From Kiloniellaceae bacterium (GTDB lineage: Bacteria > Pseudomonadota > Alphaproteobacteria > Kiloniellales > J153): DNA of 43,729 nt. A program made the translations under genes and the position numbers. Below, one piece after another: positions 36,902 through 43,551 of the stretch (position 1 is the first letter of the stretch; every line of letters starts with the position of its first letter). The stretch covers positions 1-43,729 of the forward strand of contig JAJFGL010000042.1 in the NCBI GenBank assembly GCA_021776135.1, in the 5' to 3' direction. Under the pieces are notes generated by a model. The model was given only the letters and a program-made list of their open reading frames with translations, was not told the DNA's origin and did no database searches.

Positions 36902-37649
36902 ATGGCAGAGGCGGTTGATTGGGTTGTTGTGGGGGCTGGCGTCGTGGGCTTGGCGGTTGCCCGCCAGCTGGCGTGCGATGGCCGCGATGTCCTGGTTGTC
37001 GAGGCCGTGAGCAGCATCGGCACGCAGATCAGATCGCGCAATTCCGAGGTCATTCACACTGGGATTTACTATCAGCCGGGCTCGCTAAAAGCGCGGCTTT
37101 GCCGGCGTGGCCGGGATCTGCTTTACGCCTTCTGCGATGATTATCATGTCGGATATCGCTGCTGCGAAAAGCTGATTGTCATCACGGCGCCGGAGCAGGC
37201 CGGCACTTTGAAGGATCTCATGGCGCGCGGTGCAGCCAAATGGGGTCGAGGGCCTTGCATACATCCCGCGCGAAGACGCCGAGGCATTGGAACCGGAAAT
37301 TAAGTGCTTGGCCGCGCTCCACTCACCCTCCACCGGAATCATCGATAGCCATGGCTTTATGGCCGCCCTGCAGGACGATGCGGAAACTCATGGCGCGATG
37401 ATCGCGTTCTCCAGCCAAGTCCTTCCCGCGGCAAGTATCCCCCGGGGGCTAGCCCAACAGATTGGCGGTACCGAAGAAATTGAGATCGTCGCGCTTTGCG
37501 TTGTCAATTGTGCCGGGCTCCGCGCGGTAGACTTGACGAACAAGGTCGAGGGGCTGGCCAAAGCGCATATCCTCAAACAACGGCTGACCAGCCAAGCAGC
37601 CGTGCGCCGCGTAAAATTAGATCACTGCAACCGTAATTCGTCACCGTAA
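36902..37649 (+). pseudogene. L-2-hydroxyglutarate oxidase-like flavoprotein, frameshifted and truncated
   Basis: The first frame gives VVVGAGVVGLAVARQLA (FAD Rossmann), RNSEVIHTGIYYQPGSLKA and KLIVITAPEQ, the typical start of LhgO-type oxidases. At the A-run 37238-37240 one extra A shifts the frame: removing it restores GVEGLAYIPREDAEALEPEI continuing into the 37230-37649 frame (HSPSTGIIDSHGFMAALQ). Similarity fades after KVEGLAKAHI near 37570, so roughly the last 40% of the normal 370-400 residues is missing. The gene is therefore dead. It would have oxidised L-2-hydroxyglutarate or a similar hydroxy acid. Confidence 0.85.
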
Positions 37650-38551: not shown

Positions 38552-38580
38552 AAATAAATACCGGGACCGGTTTCAGGTCC
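38552..38580 (-). terminator. Possible intrinsic-type terminator of serB
   Basis: On the minus strand GGACC-tgaaacc-GGTCC forms a 5-bp stem at the end of serB, overlapping its stop, and is followed by CGGTATTTATTT, a fairly T-rich stretch. The stem is short and the T-tract interrupted, so termination may be weak. It also separates serB from the convergent pseudogene. Confidence 0.35.
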
Positions 38581-39469
38581 GCACGAATTCCGATTTGCGG
38601 AAGCCCTGGATGTACAAAAGGGCCGTTAAGTCGCCGTGATCGATACAGGCGTTGGCGCGACTTCTGAGGCTTTCGGAGCCGTGGAAGGCGACGCCAAGCC
38701 CGGCCGCTTCTATCATTTTGATATCGTTGGCCCCGTCGCCGACCGCGATCGCGTCGCGGGGCGTCAAGCCTTGTTCGCCGCACAGCCGGGTCAAGGTGTT
38801 CAACTTCGCGGATCGCCCGAGTATCGGTTCCGTCACCTCTCCCGTCAGCTTTCCATCCTTGAAAGCTAAGTTGTTTCCTTGATGGTCATGAAATCCGATA
38901 CGTTCGGCGATGCGCTGGGTGAAGAAGCTGAAACCGCCGGAAACGAGGATGCAAAACGCCCCGTGACGGCGCATGGTTTGAACCAGTGTCCGGGCGCCCG
39001 ATTTAAGAGAAATCCTTTCTTCATAGACGCTTTCAAGCAGGCCGTGTTCCATTCCCTTCATCAAACCCAGGCGGGTGCGTAGCGCATCGGAGAAACTTAT
39101 TTCGCCATCTATGACGGCGGCCGTTATCGCCCTGATTTGCGTTCCGAGGCCCAATGCGTCGCCTAGTTCGTCGATGCATTCTTGATCGATGACCGTGGAG
39201 TCCATGTCGGAAATAAGTAGTTTCTTCCGCCGCCCCAAGGCGGGGGTGCATACCGCGTCAATGGCTGTGCCGCTTAAAGCGTCGCGGGCCTGCCGGGCTA
39301 TATCGCGGGTGGAAAGGGGGGAGTCGATGAAAAGATCGCAAGCCTCTCCTTGCGCTAGCCAGTCGGAATTGCCGGCCGCCGTCAGCCGCCGGCAAACCCT
39401 TTCAAGGTGAGCGGGTTCAAGGGGCGCCGACTTGGCGTTGCCGATCAGGGTGAGCGCATAGGAGGTCAT
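38573..39469 (-). CDS. serB: Phosphoserine phosphatase SerB (298 aa)
   Basis: HAD-family phosphatase: DMDST (88-92) supplies the nucleophile and acid Asp, QECIDELGDALGLG the cap helix, LVSGGFSFFTQRIAERIGF motif II with its Ser, and AVGDGANDIKMIEAAGLGVAF the metal-binding Asp pair. The first 80 residues are the usual alphaproteobacterial N-terminal domain. It dephosphorylates phosphoserine to L-serine in the cytoplasm, the last step of serine synthesis. Length and motifs are intact. It is divergent from the GntR gene and convergent with the decayed dehydrogenase-like gene. Confidence 0.96.
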   Translation of the reverse strand: MTSYALTLIGNAKSAPLEPAHLERVCRRLTAAGNSDWLAQGEACDLFIDSPLSTRDIARQARDALSGTAIDAVCTPALGRRKKLLISDMDSTVIDQECIDELGDALGLGTQIRAITAAVIDGEISFSDALRTRLGLMKGMEHGLLESVYEERISLKSGARTLVQTMRRHGAFCILVSGGFSFFTQRIAERIGFHDHQGNNLAFKDGKLTGEVTEPILGRSAKLNTLTRLCGEQGLTPRDAIAVGDGANDIKMIEAAGLGVAFHGSESLRSRANACIDHGDLTALLYIQGFRKSEFVRT

Positions 39470-39513: not shown

Positions 39514-39542
39514 TTGACATGCGCGGCCGTGGAACCTAGTGT
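39514..39542 (+). promoter_or_regulatory. Sigma70-type promoter of the GntR gene
   Basis: TTGACA (39514-39519), a perfect -35, is followed after 17 bases by TAGTGT (39537-39542), matching the -10 consensus at four of six positions. Transcription should start near 39548-39551, which is at the ATG at 39549 itself. That implies either a leaderless mRNA or use of a start codon further down. Confidence 0.6.
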
Positions 39543-39548
39543 TCGAGC

Positions 39549-40352
39549 ATGAATAATATTTGGACTATACCACAAACAATTCATTGGTCGATACCAAATG
39601 AAACACGAAAATCCTGGGACCGCAGGATTCCTTACTACATGCGTTTTAGAGACCATTTCACGGCCATGATCGAGGCGGGGACGCTGGCTCCCGGGGCCAA
39701 GCTCGCGCCGGAACGGGCGCTGGCTGAAGAATTTTCCATCACCAGAGTCACGGTACGCCAAGCGCTGACGCAGATGGAGGCCGAGGGTCTGATCTTTCGC
39801 GAGGAACGGCGCGGGTGGTTCGTTTCCCCGCCCAGGGTCCGTTACGATCCGACCGCGAATACCAGTTTCACCGAAAGCATCACCGAGCAGGGCCGGGTGG
39901 CCGGCACGACGGTTCTGTCCAAGCATCAAATTTCCGCGTCCCCGTGGGAGAGTGCGAACCTTGGGTGTGCCGTCGGCGATCCCGTTTTCGCCATCAGCCG
40001 CTTGCGGACAGTCGATGGCCGCGCGGTTCTGGTCGAGCAAATACATGTTAAGGCGGAACGATGTCCCGGCTTGCTGGATCTCCCGCTCGACCGCTCGATG
40101 ACCGATCTGATGGCGGAGGAATTCGGTATCGTCGAACACCGGGCGCAGATCAATATGCGGCCAACGGCCTTATCGGAGATTCCAGCCAAATCCCTGGGGG
40201 TGGCGGTTGGAACGCCTAGCCTCTACCTATCGCGGGCGATTCTCGATCAATTCAACGAAGTCGTTGAATTCGATCAGGAATTCTGGCGTCACGACGCCAT
40301 CGATATTTGCGTCTCGGCGACCGGAAGCCAAACGGAGGCGGCGCAGGCTTAA
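39549..40352 (+). CDS. GntR-family regulator with UTRA ligand domain (HutC type)
   Basis: Winged helix at about residues 28-98 (YYMRFRDHFTAMIEAGTLAP, ALAEEFSITRVTVRQALTQM, EEGL-like turn and RRGWFVSPP), then a UTRA domain (FTESITEQGR, FAISRLRTVDGRAVLVEQ, SLYLSRAILDQFNEVVEFDQ). UTRA proteins sense small metabolites and usually repress adjacent transport or catabolic genes. It is followed 21 bases on by an amino-acid ABC ATPase gene. The start is uncertain: ATG at 39549 has no ribosome site and coincides with the predicted transcript start, while ATG at 39639 (residue 31) has AGGA 11 bases upstream but would trim the first helix. Two operator-like sites lie between the two. Confidence 0.88.
   Translation: MNNIWTIPQTIHWSIPNETRKSWDRRIPYYMRFRDHFTAMIEAGTLAPGAKLAPERALAEEFSITRVTVRQALTQMEAEGLIFREERRGWFVSPPRVRYDPTANTSFTESITEQGRVAGTTVLSKHQISASPWESANLGCAVGDPVFAISRLRTVDGRAVLVEQIHVKAERCPGLLDLPLDRSMTDLMAEEFGIVEHRAQINMRPTALSEIPAKSLGVAVGTPSLYLSRAILDQFNEVVEFDQEFWRHDAIDICVSATGSQTEAAQA
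39561..39596. promoter_or_regulatory. Operator-like pair at the 5' end of the GntR gene
   Basis: TGGACTATACCA (39561-39572) and TGGTCGATACCA (39585-39596) each differ at one position from the reverse complement of TGGTATAGACCA found before the binding-protein gene. The starts are 24 bp apart, on one face of the helix. They lie about 12-48 bases downstream of the predicted transcript start, a position where a bound repressor would block its own gene. GntR/UTRA proteins typically bind GGTATAGACC-like palindromes. Confidence 0.6.
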
Positions 40353-40373
40353 GGACAAACAAGAGGGAATACC

Positions 40374-41129
40374 ATGCCGGATCCAACGCCGATCATCGCG
40401 GTCAAGGACATCTGCAAAACTTTTGAAATACCAGGGCGGCCGCCCGTGCATGCGCTGCGTCACGTCTCCAACCATGTCGACAAGGGCGAGGTTCTGGTCG
40501 TTATCGGGCCCAGCGGCTCAGGCAAATCTACATTTCTGCGGGCGCTGAATGGATTGCAGCCGATCGACAGCGGCTCCATCGTTATCGACGGCGTTGAACT
40601 GACCGATGCCAAGACCGATCACAACAAGCTGCGTCAGGGCGTCGGCATGGTGTTCCAGCACTTCAACCTGTTCCAGCATAAAACCGCGTTGGAAAACATC
40701 ACCATGCCGCAAATGGTCGTGCTCAAGCGAACCAAGGCCGAAGCCGGGGAAATCGGCAACCGCTTGCTCGCGCGGGTGGGGATCGCCGACAAGGGCGATA
40801 GCTATCCGAGCGAGCTCTCAGGCGGTCAGCAGCAGCGCGTCGCCATCGCCCGCTCCTTGGCCATGACGCCCAAGGTCATGCTGTTCGACGAGGCGACCTC
40901 GGCGCTCGACCCGGAAACGGTCGGCGGGGTGCTCGAACTGATGAAGGATCTGGCCGCCGAGGGCACGACCATGGTCGTCGTGACCCATGAGATGGGCTTC
41001 GCCCGCGAGGCCGGCGACCGGGTGACCTTCATGGATGACGGCGCCATCGTCGAGGAAGGCACGCCCGAGGCGATCTTCGACAACCCCCAGCACGAGCGCA
41101 CCCAGTTATTCCTTAGCCAGATCATCTAA
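40374..41129 (+). CDS. Polar amino-acid ABC transporter ATP-binding protein (251 aa)
   Basis: Walker [10 protein letters not shown] (45-53), Q-loop [19 protein letters not shown], signature [18 protein letters not shown], Walker [15 protein letters not shown] and switch His in [12 protein letters not shown] are all intact. The HFNLFQH-T-LENI form and [11 protein letters not shown]-like end ([18 protein letters not shown]) are typical of the GlnQ/HisP/polar amino-acid class. It powers uptake with the two permeases and binding protein downstream. GAGGGAA precedes the ATG. It is probably co-transcribed with the GntR gene, while the binding-protein gene seems to have its own control region. Confidence 0.95.
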
Positions 41130-41144
41130 CGCTGTGGATGCTAT

Positions 41145-41179
41145 TGGTATAGACCACTATAGATTATTGGTATATACCA
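41145..41179. promoter_or_regulatory. Operator-like pair upstream of the binding-protein gene
   Basis: TGGTATAGACCA (41145-41156) and the perfect palindrome TGGTATATACCA (41168-41179) start 23 bp apart, the same arrangement as the pair at the GntR gene. ATAAGC and other AT-rich sequence follow, so a promoter is likely at or just after the second site. The GntR/UTRA protein encoded at 39549 is the obvious binder. This would place the binding-protein and permease genes under its control. The gap 41130-41278 holds nothing else that I recognise. Confidence 0.65.
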
Positions 41180-41278: not shown

Positions 41279-42073
41279 ATGAGGAAAATCACGAGATTGT
41301 TTGTATTGGGTCTGTGCGTTCTAGGCTTGAGCGCCTATGCCCAATCGGCCTCGGCAGACGTATTGAAGGACATCGTCAAGCGCGGTGAACTGCGTGTCGC
41401 CGTTCAAACCCAGGGACCGCCCGTTAGTTTTGTCGATAAGAACGGCGACCGAACCGGTTTCGCCATCGAAGTCGTCAAGATGATGGCCGAGGACATGGGG
41501 GTTGAGCTCAAGCTGCTCGATTACGACTGGAAAGGACTGATCCCGGCGGTCAATTCGGGCAAGGCCGATTTCCTGGCCGCCGACATGACGCCCAACGCCA
41601 AGCGTACCCTGGTCTTGAGCTTCACCGAGCCCTATCTCTACAGCGATGTGGTTCTGTATTCCAAGAAGAGCCAGCCGTTCATGAAATGGCAGGATGCGTG
41701 CAAGAAAGGCGTGTCCATCGGTGTTGTTCAGGGTAGCAGCAACGTCGGCTTATTGAAGAAGAAGTGCCCGGATACGACCATCAAGGAGTTCGCCGGCGGT
41801 GGCGCCGCGGTGGCCCAGGCCGTCGCCGCCGATCGTGCCGATGCGGGAATCAACGATATCGCTTCGGCCGCCGGTTACATGGTCGAATATAATGAATTCA
41901 AGATTCTCGACGGGGCGCCGAAGCGCTGGCCCTTGAGTTTCGCCACCCGCCCGGATGAGAATCACCTGCTGCGCTGGATGGATAATTATTTCATGTTGAT
42001 CCGCAACGACGGCCGCCTGGAGCAGCTGGCGGACTATTGGATGCGCGGTCCGACTTGGAAGAAGGATCACTAA
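41279..42073 (+). CDS. Periplasmic amino-acid-binding protein of ABC transporter (264 aa)
   Basis: A signal peptide, MRKITRLFVLGLCVLGL to about residue 26 with ASA before the probable cut, is followed by an SBP_bac_3 domain: DIVKRGELRVAVQTQGPP, DKNGDRTGFAIEVVKMMAED, GLIPAVNSGKADFLAADMT, IGVVQGSSN and RADAGINDI. The fold binds polar amino acids or related small acids in the periplasm and delivers them to the two permeases. AAGGGAG and GAAGAG precede the ATG at 41279, which also starts the signal peptide; the GTG-initiated reading from 41222 was rejected. The ligand cannot be deduced. Operators of the adjacent GntR protein probably control it. Confidence 0.93.
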   Translation: MRKITRLFVLGLCVLGLSAYAQSASADVLKDIVKRGELRVAVQTQGPPVSFVDKNGDRTGFAIEVVKMMAEDMGVELKLLDYDWKGLIPAVNSGKADFLAADMTPNAKRTLVLSFTEPYLYSDVVLYSKKSQPFMKWQDACKKGVSIGVVQGSSNVGLLKKKCPDTTIKEFAGGGAAVAQAVAADRADAGINDIASAAGYMVEYNEFKILDGAPKRWPLSFATRPDENHLLRWMDNYFMLIRNDGRLEQLADYWMRGPTWKKDH

Positions 42074-42185: not shown

Positions 42186-42872
42186 ATGGATTGGATTCTC
42201 GATTTCTACAATTACCGGGTCGTCGCCCAGTATCTGCCGGACTTCGCCCGCGGCCTCGGCGCGACAGCGTGGATTTCCCTGGTCGCTTTGGCGATTTCTC
42301 TCAGTGTCGGCACGCTCGTCGCCATCATGCGGATGTCCACCCGCCAGCTCTTGTGGCGGCCCGCCGCCGCCTACGTTCAGGCGATCCGTTCGACACCGCT
42401 ACTCATTCAGATATATTTGATCTATTTCACCGTTCCGGCCTTGCCCCTGCTTGGCCGCCGTCTCGATGAGCTTGAGGGCGGTATCATCGCGCTCGGTCTC
42501 AACGCCGGCGCTTACATGAGCGAGATTATCCGCGCCGGTATCGAATCGATTTCCCGCGGCCAGGTCGAGGGCGCCCAATCAGTCGGCATGACCTATCTGC
42601 AACGCATGCGCTATGTGGTCATGCCGCAAGCCATCGCCCGCGTCGCGCCGACCTTGCTCGGGCAGACGGCGGTTCTCATTAAAGATAGTTCCCTGGTCAG
42701 CTTTATCGGCGTGTTCGAACTCTTCGGCGCCGGACTGCTGGTTTATAACGAACGATTGATGCCAAACGAAGGTTATCTGACCGTCGCCACCTGCTACCTG
42801 GCGATCTATGCCTTCATGCTGTGGGTCACCGGAATCGCGCAACGCCGCCTTGGCGGCACGGCAACGGCTTGA
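42186..42872 (+). CDS. Polar amino-acid ABC transporter permease 1 (228 aa)
   Basis: About five hydrophobic segments and the cytoplasmic EAA loop EGAQSVGMTYLQRMRYVVMPQA, in which EGA-SVGM-----YV-MPQA contacts the ATPase. The family signature RSTPLLIQIYLIYF is also present. The HisM/GlnP-like membrane subunit makes half of the channel. It begins 112 bases after the binding-protein stop, beyond the hairpin, with a modest ribosome site (GGCGAAGAAA) before the ATG. The second permease follows after 10 bases. Confidence 0.94.
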   Translation: MDWILDFYNYRVVAQYLPDFARGLGATAWISLVALAISLSVGTLVAIMRMSTRQLLWRPAAAYVQAIRSTPLLIQIYLIYFTVPALPLLGRRLDELEGGIIALGLNAGAYMSEIIRAGIESISRGQVEGAQSVGMTYLQRMRYVVMPQAIARVAPTLLGQTAVLIKDSSLVSFIGVFELFGAGLLVYNERLMPNEGYLTVATCYLAIYAFMLWVTGIAQRRLGGTATA

Positions 42873-42882
42873 GTAGGGACCG

Positions 42883-43551
42883 ATGTTAGAAGTCATCGTA
42901 TCGACCATGCCGTTCCTGCTTGAAGGTTTGTGGGTAACCTTCGAGATTTCCATGATTACCATATTTTTCGGCAGTCTGATCGGCGTTCTGGTTGGCATGT
43001 TGCGGACGCTTAATTATGCCGTGATCAATGTCCCTCTGGGGGCATATATCCATGCCTTGCGCGGGACCCCGTTCCTGATCCATCTCTACTTCGTCTACTT
43101 CATGCTGCCGGCGACGGGAATTTCGTGGCTGCAGTTGGAAGCCTTTCCGGCGGCCGTCATCGCCCTCAGTCTCTATACCTCGACTTATGTCGCGGAAATC
43201 GTGCGTGGCGCCATACAGGCCGTTCCGCGTGGCCAAGGCGAAGCGGCCCGTTCGACCGGAATGACGGCGCTGCAAAGCATGTGGTATGTGGTGCTGCCCC
43301 AAGCCCTGAAGCTGATGATTCCGCCCATGGGCGGTGTTTACGTCATCATCATCAAGGGCACGTCCATCGTCTCGGTTATCGGCATCGCGGAATTGGTCCG
43401 GGCCGGGGAGCACGCCACCCAGCGCCATCCCAGGGAACTGATGTTGATTTACGGCATGACAGCGCTGATGTACTTCGCTTACTGCTATCCGGTTTTACGC
43501 TTAGCGCGCTGGGCGGAGACCAAGTACGGCGGCGTTCGCCTGCCTTCGTAA
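42883..43551 (+). CDS. Polar amino-acid ABC transporter permease 2 (222 aa)
   Basis: Hydrophobic segments with RGTPFLIHLYFVYFML and the EAA loop GEAARSTGMTALQSMWYVVLPQA. It pairs with permease 1 as a heterodimer over the ATPase encoded at 40374. The protein ends RLARWAETKYGGVRLPS, a normal cytoplasmic end. Together with the binding protein this makes a complete importer. A weak inverted repeat (GCGC-tgta-GCGC, about 43567-43578) lies between it and the convergent dehydrogenase gene; it has no T-tract. Confidence 0.94.
   Translation: MLEVIVSTMPFLLEGLWVTFEISMITIFFGSLIGVLVGMLRTLNYAVINVPLGAYIHALRGTPFLIHLYFVYFMLPATGISWLQLEAFPAAVIALSLYTSTYVAEIVRGAIQAVPRGQGEAARSTGMTALQSMWYVVLPQALKLMIPPMGGVYVIIIKGTSIVSVIGIAELVRAGEHATQRHPRELMLIYGMTALMYFAYCYPVLRLARWAETKYGGVRLPS

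Follow-up and report, generated by a model that had tools for sequence, protein, structure and literature searches.

The operators of the repressors lambda cI and tetR of Tn1721 are located in the promoter region, outside the repressor coding sequence. The mRNAs of these two repressors are leaderless (PMC3017554), and in Sinorhizobium meliloti 171 leaderless starts have been mapped (PMC3616915). For the acuR-acuI-dddL operon of Rhodobacter sphaeroides it has been reported that the mRNA starts at the AUG, and the same is predicted in relatives (PMC3017554). As the gntR gene analyzed in this work would be, acuR is an operon-leading, self-repressing regulator of an alphaproteobacterium, with the promoter directly before the ATG; unlike gntR, it belongs to the TetR family, and its operator overlaps the promoter, outside the coding sequence (PMC3017554). 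A different arrangement was described for C.Kpn2I, whose site in its own coding region, ~20 bp past the start point, is an elongation roadblock, a location termed unique among the known C-proteins (PMC6237814). The sites predicted here for gntR are also placed within the regulator's own gene; in contrast to the gntR product, C.Kpn2I is a restriction-modification C-protein that also represses a divergent gene, and the main text of that report does not contain the word leaderless (PMC6237814). In the literature covered, with subscription papers mostly outside its scope, acuR and C.Kpn2I each provide one feature of a leaderless repressor with operators in its own coding region. Regarding the protein family, the published operator consensus of HutC is GTMTAKAC (PMC4494728), and in NagR two arginines read the operator guanines (PMC4918961).

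The window analyzed here is a stretch of 43,729 nucleotides from a Kiloniellaceae bacterium (Alphaproteobacteria), and the features of the gntR locus are collected in Table 1. Downstream of gntR the order is the ABC ATPase gene, sites 3 and 4, the binding-protein gene and the two permease genes. Between the divergent serB gene and the gntR promoter, a scan allowing up to three mismatches found no operator match. Elsewhere in the window, the list of open reading frames suggests that one gene at 36902-37649 is broken into two frames, 36902-37303 and 37230-37649, which may reflect a frameshift; we take it to be FAD-dependent oxidoreductase-like.

Table 1. Genes, promoter boxes and operator-like sites of the gntR locus, in positions of the window.
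Feature	Position	Strand	Remarks
serB (phosphoserine phosphatase)	38573..39469	-	divergent neighbour upstream of gntR; TIGR00338 over cut-off
-35 box TTGACA of the gntR promoter	39514..39519	+	TTGACA in 9/10 and TTGACG in 1/10 leaderless-type loci; constant distance to ATG
-10 box TAGTGT of gntR	39537..39542	+	TARNNT at -12..-7 in 10/10 leaderless-type loci
gntR, HutC-subfamily regulator (GntR wHTH + UTRA)	39549..40352	+	PF00392, PF07702; start assigned by comparison
Operator 1	39561..39572	+	codes W5-T-I-P8; predicted +13 to +24; <=1 mismatch in 10/11 loci
Operator 2	39585..39596	+	codes W13-S-I-P16; predicted +37 to +48; <=1 mismatch in 11/11 loci
ABC transporter ATPase, polar amino acid type (GlnQ-like)	40374..41129	+	PF00005; best NCBIfam model GlnQ, below cut-off
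Operator 3	41145..41156	+	upstream of binding-protein gene; <=1 mismatch in 9/11 loci
Operator 4	41168..41179	+	perfect palindrome TGGTATATACCA; <=1 mismatch in 9/11 loci
Periplasmic binding protein, SBP_bac_3 family	41279..42073	+	PF00497 1.1e-29
ABC permease 1	42186..42872	+	PF00528; TIGR01726 over cut-off
ABC permease 2	42883..43551	+	PF00528; TIGR01726 over cut-off

The product of gntR carries the two domains that define the HutC subfamily, PF00392 (61 bits) and PF07702 (98.1 bits), both over cut-off, and its top Foldseek matches are DasR, YvoA/NagR and PhnF. The best NCBIfam model is PhnR (TIGR03337), with 242.8 bits for a curated cut-off of 296.75. By its domains the regulator is thus classified as HutC-type (GntR/UTRA), PhnR-like yet differing from PhnR in scoring under the cut-off of that model. 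With PhnR, PhnF, NagR (YvoA) and DasR, all of them GntR-HutC repressors, it has in common the domains and the fold, as well as the operator consensus and the DNA-reading arginines; the latter were equated with R56 and R66 through their alignment positions, and both residues are invariant in an alignment of 30 rows.

A preliminary description of this DNA had proposed a four-site GntR/UTRA operator system. The four 12-mers are present, with starts 24 and 23 bp apart within the two pairs, and the proposal is backed by the conservation of the sites, their match to the HutC consensus and the conserved arginines. Conservation was counted as one mismatch at most to TGGTNTANACCA in 11 orthologous loci (the window, L051, L052, L053, L054, L055, L024, L056, L057, L058 and L059), leaving out the duplicate records L022 (identical to L051) and L023 (identical to L054), and scoring the single site of L056 as site 4, following the alignment. 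In the window, TGGTNTANACCA is matched perfectly by sites 3 and 4 and with a single mismatch by sites 1 and 2, and the four predicted sites have the HutC operator form N-GT-MTAK-AC-N. Operator 1 of L054 is degenerate (GGGAATATACCA), and L055, L056, L057 and L058 have each only one site of the second pair at this threshold. When the window was scanned for TGGTATATACCA with up to three mismatches, 15 matches were obtained, against 5.71 +/- 2.38 in 100 shuffled sequences, none of which reached this number (maximum, 13). The four operator-like sites are therefore real, above chance and conserved.

The promoter layout is as previously described, i.e. TTGACA, 17 bp, TAGTGT, 6 bp and the ATG at 39549. 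The -10 box of the window is weak by consensus (three of six positions of TATAAT), and the promoter is absent from the output of the consensus promoter scan of the window. Among the orthologous loci, TTGACR-17-TARNNT is found exactly 6 nt before the ATG in 10 of the 11, L059 being the exception, so that the support for this promoter, from the comparison of loci, is conservation and not the consensus score. The genome scan that gave these loci was partly seeded with the peptide MNNIWTIP, which favours loci with that N-terminus; L059 and the more distant homologues, however, do not have it.

Two start codons in the same frame, 39549 and 39639, had been put forward for gntR, the first with a leaderless mRNA and coding operators, the second with the operators in an untranslated leader. 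A start further upstream is ruled out by an in-frame stop, since the first three bases of the -10 box are a stop codon (at -12) in the ten leaderless-type loci; in all ten, the ATG at +1 is the sole ATG, GTG or TTG between this stop and codon 31. Translation from 39639, which would leave operators 1 and 2 in a leader of ~90 nt, has in its favour an AGGA stretch upstream (anti-SD energy of -4.1) and the fact that distant homologues align without most of the N-terminal extension. However, codon 31 (39639) is ATG in just three of ten rows, being TTG, ACG, GTG, CTG (three rows) or ATC in the others, and a start there would remove the I-P-Y-Y that opens the first helix of the winged-helix domain. 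In addition, codons 17-30 are conserved at the protein level, with synonymous changes that fall mainly on third positions as in the gene body; for codons 17-26 the differences at positions 1, 2 and 3 are 0.207, 0.091 and 0.478, and for the gene body 0.161, 0.076 and 0.395. We consider this second start extremely improbable: because codon 31 is not kept as a start and the preceding codons show the substitution pattern of coding sequence, the comparison of the 11 loci places the beginning of translation at 39549, and of the two options only the one with coding operators stands.

In an alignment of nine promoter rows, identity was 0.963 for the -35 box, 0.856 for the -10 box and 1.0 for the ATG, 0.613 for the spacer, 0.579 for positions -6 to -1 and 0.302 for -60 to -36. 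The distances of 17 and 6 are constant in ten rows. Operator 1 of the two SAR324 rows lies 15, not 12, nt past the A of the ATG, but the -10 box and the ATG are still 6 nt apart. Pairing with the anti-SD before the ATG at 39549 is weak, ranging from 0.2 to -3.3 in eight of nine rows (the value for L057 was computed one base off), with -5.1 in L054; for five other genes of the window the values are -5.2 to -8.4. Ten of the 11 loci present the spacing expected for a leaderless gene, with a conserved -10 box 6 nt before the ATG, and eight of the nine rows have no strong Shine-Dalgarno pairing. Given the conservation of the boxes and the ATG, the fixed spacing and the weak anti-SD pairing, transcription is predicted to start at the A of the ATG, and the gntR mRNA is very probably leaderless, with its 5' end at this position.

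It could also be that the ATG at 39549 is used in a transcript with a short or longer 5' leader, in which case the operators would still be coding. The weak -10 box, missed by the promoter scan, is compatible with such a transcript, and the real 5' end may differ from +1 by a few bases; nonetheless, the 6-nt distance is fixed in the ten rows, the anti-SD pairing is weak and conservation is low upstream of the -35 box, hence we regard a leader as unlikely. Folding of the mRNA start in five of the 11 loci gave z-scores of -2.15, -0.81, -0.02, -1.83 and 0.37, and no consistent RNA-structure signal was found among these five. An inverted repeat early in gntR (39608-39631), scored as terminator-like for the minus strand, forms in the folded RNA of the window and of L052; it does not form in the three remaining rows of this set.

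Read from 39549 on the presumably leaderless message, the predicted operators 1 and 2 are located downstream of the predicted start point and inside the coding region of their own regulator, as the site of C.Kpn2I is; they correspond to codons 5-8 and 13-16. They encode W-T-I-P and W-S-I-P, with largely frozen and rare codons. In operator 1, codons for the same residue differ in none of 119 pairs, in operator 2 in 32 of 135, and in the gene body in 3234 of 7817. The isoleucine of both operators is encoded by ATA in the ten rows; in the gene bodies, ATA represents nine of 144 Ile codons. Columns with an invariant residue use a single codon in three of five cases within the sites, versus five of the 103 such columns of the body (Fisher p 0.0026), although these codon statistics come from related rows and are indicative only. 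Variation is much greater in codons 2-4 and 9-12, where it extends to the first and second positions. In the structure model, residues 1-12 have a pLDDT below 50, and the winged-helix domain is confident from around residue 29. Since the codons are largely frozen within the sites, their neighbours vary and residues 1-12 have a low pLDDT, selection seems to hold the DNA more than the peptide at operators 1 and 2.

The opposite reading, in which the W-x-I-P words are conserved because of the protein and resemble operators only as a secondary effect, could be drawn from the invariance of W13, I7, I15, P8 and P16 in the ten rows. We find it very unlikely, given that the codons are largely frozen, including the rare ATA, that residues 1-12 are predicted to be disordered and that sites 3 and 4 repeat these palindromes outside coding sequence; furthermore, L059 keeps operator 1 even though there it lies upstream of the first start codon. 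The sequence around the W-x-I-P words is variable and residues 1-12 are predicted to be disordered, which indicates that the N-terminal peptide encoded by the operators is, most probably, an incidental product of these DNA sites.

Taken as a whole, we judge it likely that gntR encodes an autoregulated HutC-type repressor of an amino-acid-type ABC importer, translated from a leaderless mRNA in which operators 1 and 2 are coding. According to this proposal, the repressor would bind operators 1 and 2 (around +13 to +24 and +37 to +48) within its own first 16 codons, and once bound it would block promoter escape or elongation of the RNA polymerase at its own gene; the location of these sites fits a block of this kind, as in C.Kpn2I (PMC6237814). 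Bound to operators 3 and 4, in front of the gene for the binding protein, the repressor would shut down the importer, and a ligand imported by this transporter, or derived via it, would release the repressor, as can be expected from the UTRA family. Cooperativity within the operator pairs, with their spacing of 24 and 23 bp, is plausible. The preliminary description had also suggested looping over ~1.6 kb, an idea that derives from the presence of two site pairs at this distance from each other and that did not find support. Between sites 2 and 3 the distance is not constant: it ranges from 1557 to 1604 bp among the nine loci in which each of these sites has one mismatch at most, and L055, L056, L057 and L058 carry a single site of the second pair at this threshold. 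HutC proteins, besides, are dimers. Moreover, because each pair sits at its own gene start, local repression suffices to explain the layout, and a DNA loop bridging both pairs appears quite unlikely.

Close pairs of sites were found only at this locus in the genome of this bacterium. In the same genome there are 42 strand-counted matches to TGGTNNANACCA, with four for a reversed-pattern control (palindromes count twice), and 15 strand-counted matches at one mismatch to TGGTATAGACCA, of which five are in the gntR locus, with a control of eight; single sites elsewhere in the genome are near the control count. A palindrome at C51:27396 was discarded as a target, given that it lies inside a hydrolase gene and is probably due to chance. 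Another palindrome, TGGTATAAACCA (G000 C58:6069-6080; position 3070 of L103), lies close to the end of its contig and overlaps the start ATG of a gene for a peptide-transporter ATPase; it may be either chance or a further target.

A gene of the endonuclease/exonuclease/phosphatase fold is found 3' of the permeases in L051 and L053, as identified with Pfam, and in L058, from the reading of its ORFs. The last 178 bases of the window, where the contig ends, showed no such gene in the three forward frames. In L056 (6801-8039), a single operator (6938) followed by a gene of this fold comes directly after the gntR orthologue, and a scan of six neighbouring ORFs at this locus gave no transporter match. 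Since the operator of L056 directly precedes it, the gene of this fold can be assigned to the regulon.

The earlier suggestion of a phosphonate ligand is not favoured by these data. The regulator misses the PhnR cut-off, and phnW and pbfA of the same genome are located on another contig (G000 C51:77698-80180). In five stretches around aminoethylphosphonate genes of this genome and three relatives (L104-L108), no pair of sites was found within 30 bp at up to two mismatches. One of them, L108, a second pbfA locus of G007, has one single site at one mismatch, and the other four have none; at up to two mismatches the counts are 2, 7, 2, 6 and 5, against controls of 5, 2, 0, 2 and 1, i.e. above the control in four of the five. 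In these stretches, neither linkage of the regulator to the aminoethylphosphonate genes nor operator pairs at them were found. Within the family, phnW is over cut-off in the four genomes that have the regulator and in the five that do not, and pbfA in four of four and three of five, respectively; with phnW in all nine family genomes searched and pbfA in seven of them, the breakdown of aminoethylphosphonate appears to be common across the family. The relatives of the binding protein are too general to give a substrate, and from the family of the importer our best guess is that the ligand is an amino-acid-like compound.

The exception to the leaderless architecture, L059 (66% identity), carries both operators and the boxes TTGACA and TAGTGT, separated by 18 bases, but its start point does not coincide with an ATG; the first ATG in frame falls between operators 1 and 2. 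In a tree of 29 rows, from which the long branches L092 and L065 were removed and in which L024 was included, the leaderless clade is supported with 100/99, and L059 joins at 100/98 as sister to all ten. An earlier tree that contained L092 and L065, and was built without L024, likewise placed L059 as sister to nine of the ten leaderless rows. Among more distant relatives (38 to 51% identity), two Amphritea, one Marinobacter and one Chromatiales (L060, L061, L062 and L092) have an upstream, noncoding operator that is split from the gene by in-frame stops; in Pseudomonas, 32 of 34 rows had no site at one mismatch or less in the scanned region, which ran from 250 bases upstream of the position of residue 1 to 150 bases downstream of it. 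This distribution suggests that L059, a single metagenome-assembled locus, keeps an earlier state with the start codon between the operators. We would give an even chance to a history in which an AUG arose at the transcription start of the repressor gene, so that the mRNA became leaderless and a leader with two operators became the first 16 codons; the alternative is a loss in L059 instead of the capture of operators by a new AUG.

Searched at an E value of 1e-45, orthologues were present in four of 61 genomes of the order, including the one studied here, which was also the only one among 385 genomes of the class. No match was found in viral contigs, and the matches in plasmids were all below 60% identity. 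Two assemblies of SAR324/Lambdaproteobacteria (L057 and L058) carry the same locus with 79% protein identity, which points to a transfer between phyla or to a binning error.

The combination of a leaderless start with operators in the regulator's own coding sequence appears to be uncommon, conserved in relatives and assembled from known parts. If true, a single stretch of DNA would act at the same time as a promoter-proximal operator, as the start of a leaderless message and as protein code, and a plausible intermediate state would be preserved in the relative L059. Sites of this kind would be missed or misplaced by gene finders that prefer a start with a Shine-Dalgarno sequence, or by regulon searches restricted to intergenic regions. 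If true, this locus would also illustrate a route for the origin of leaderless genes and of N-terminal extensions.
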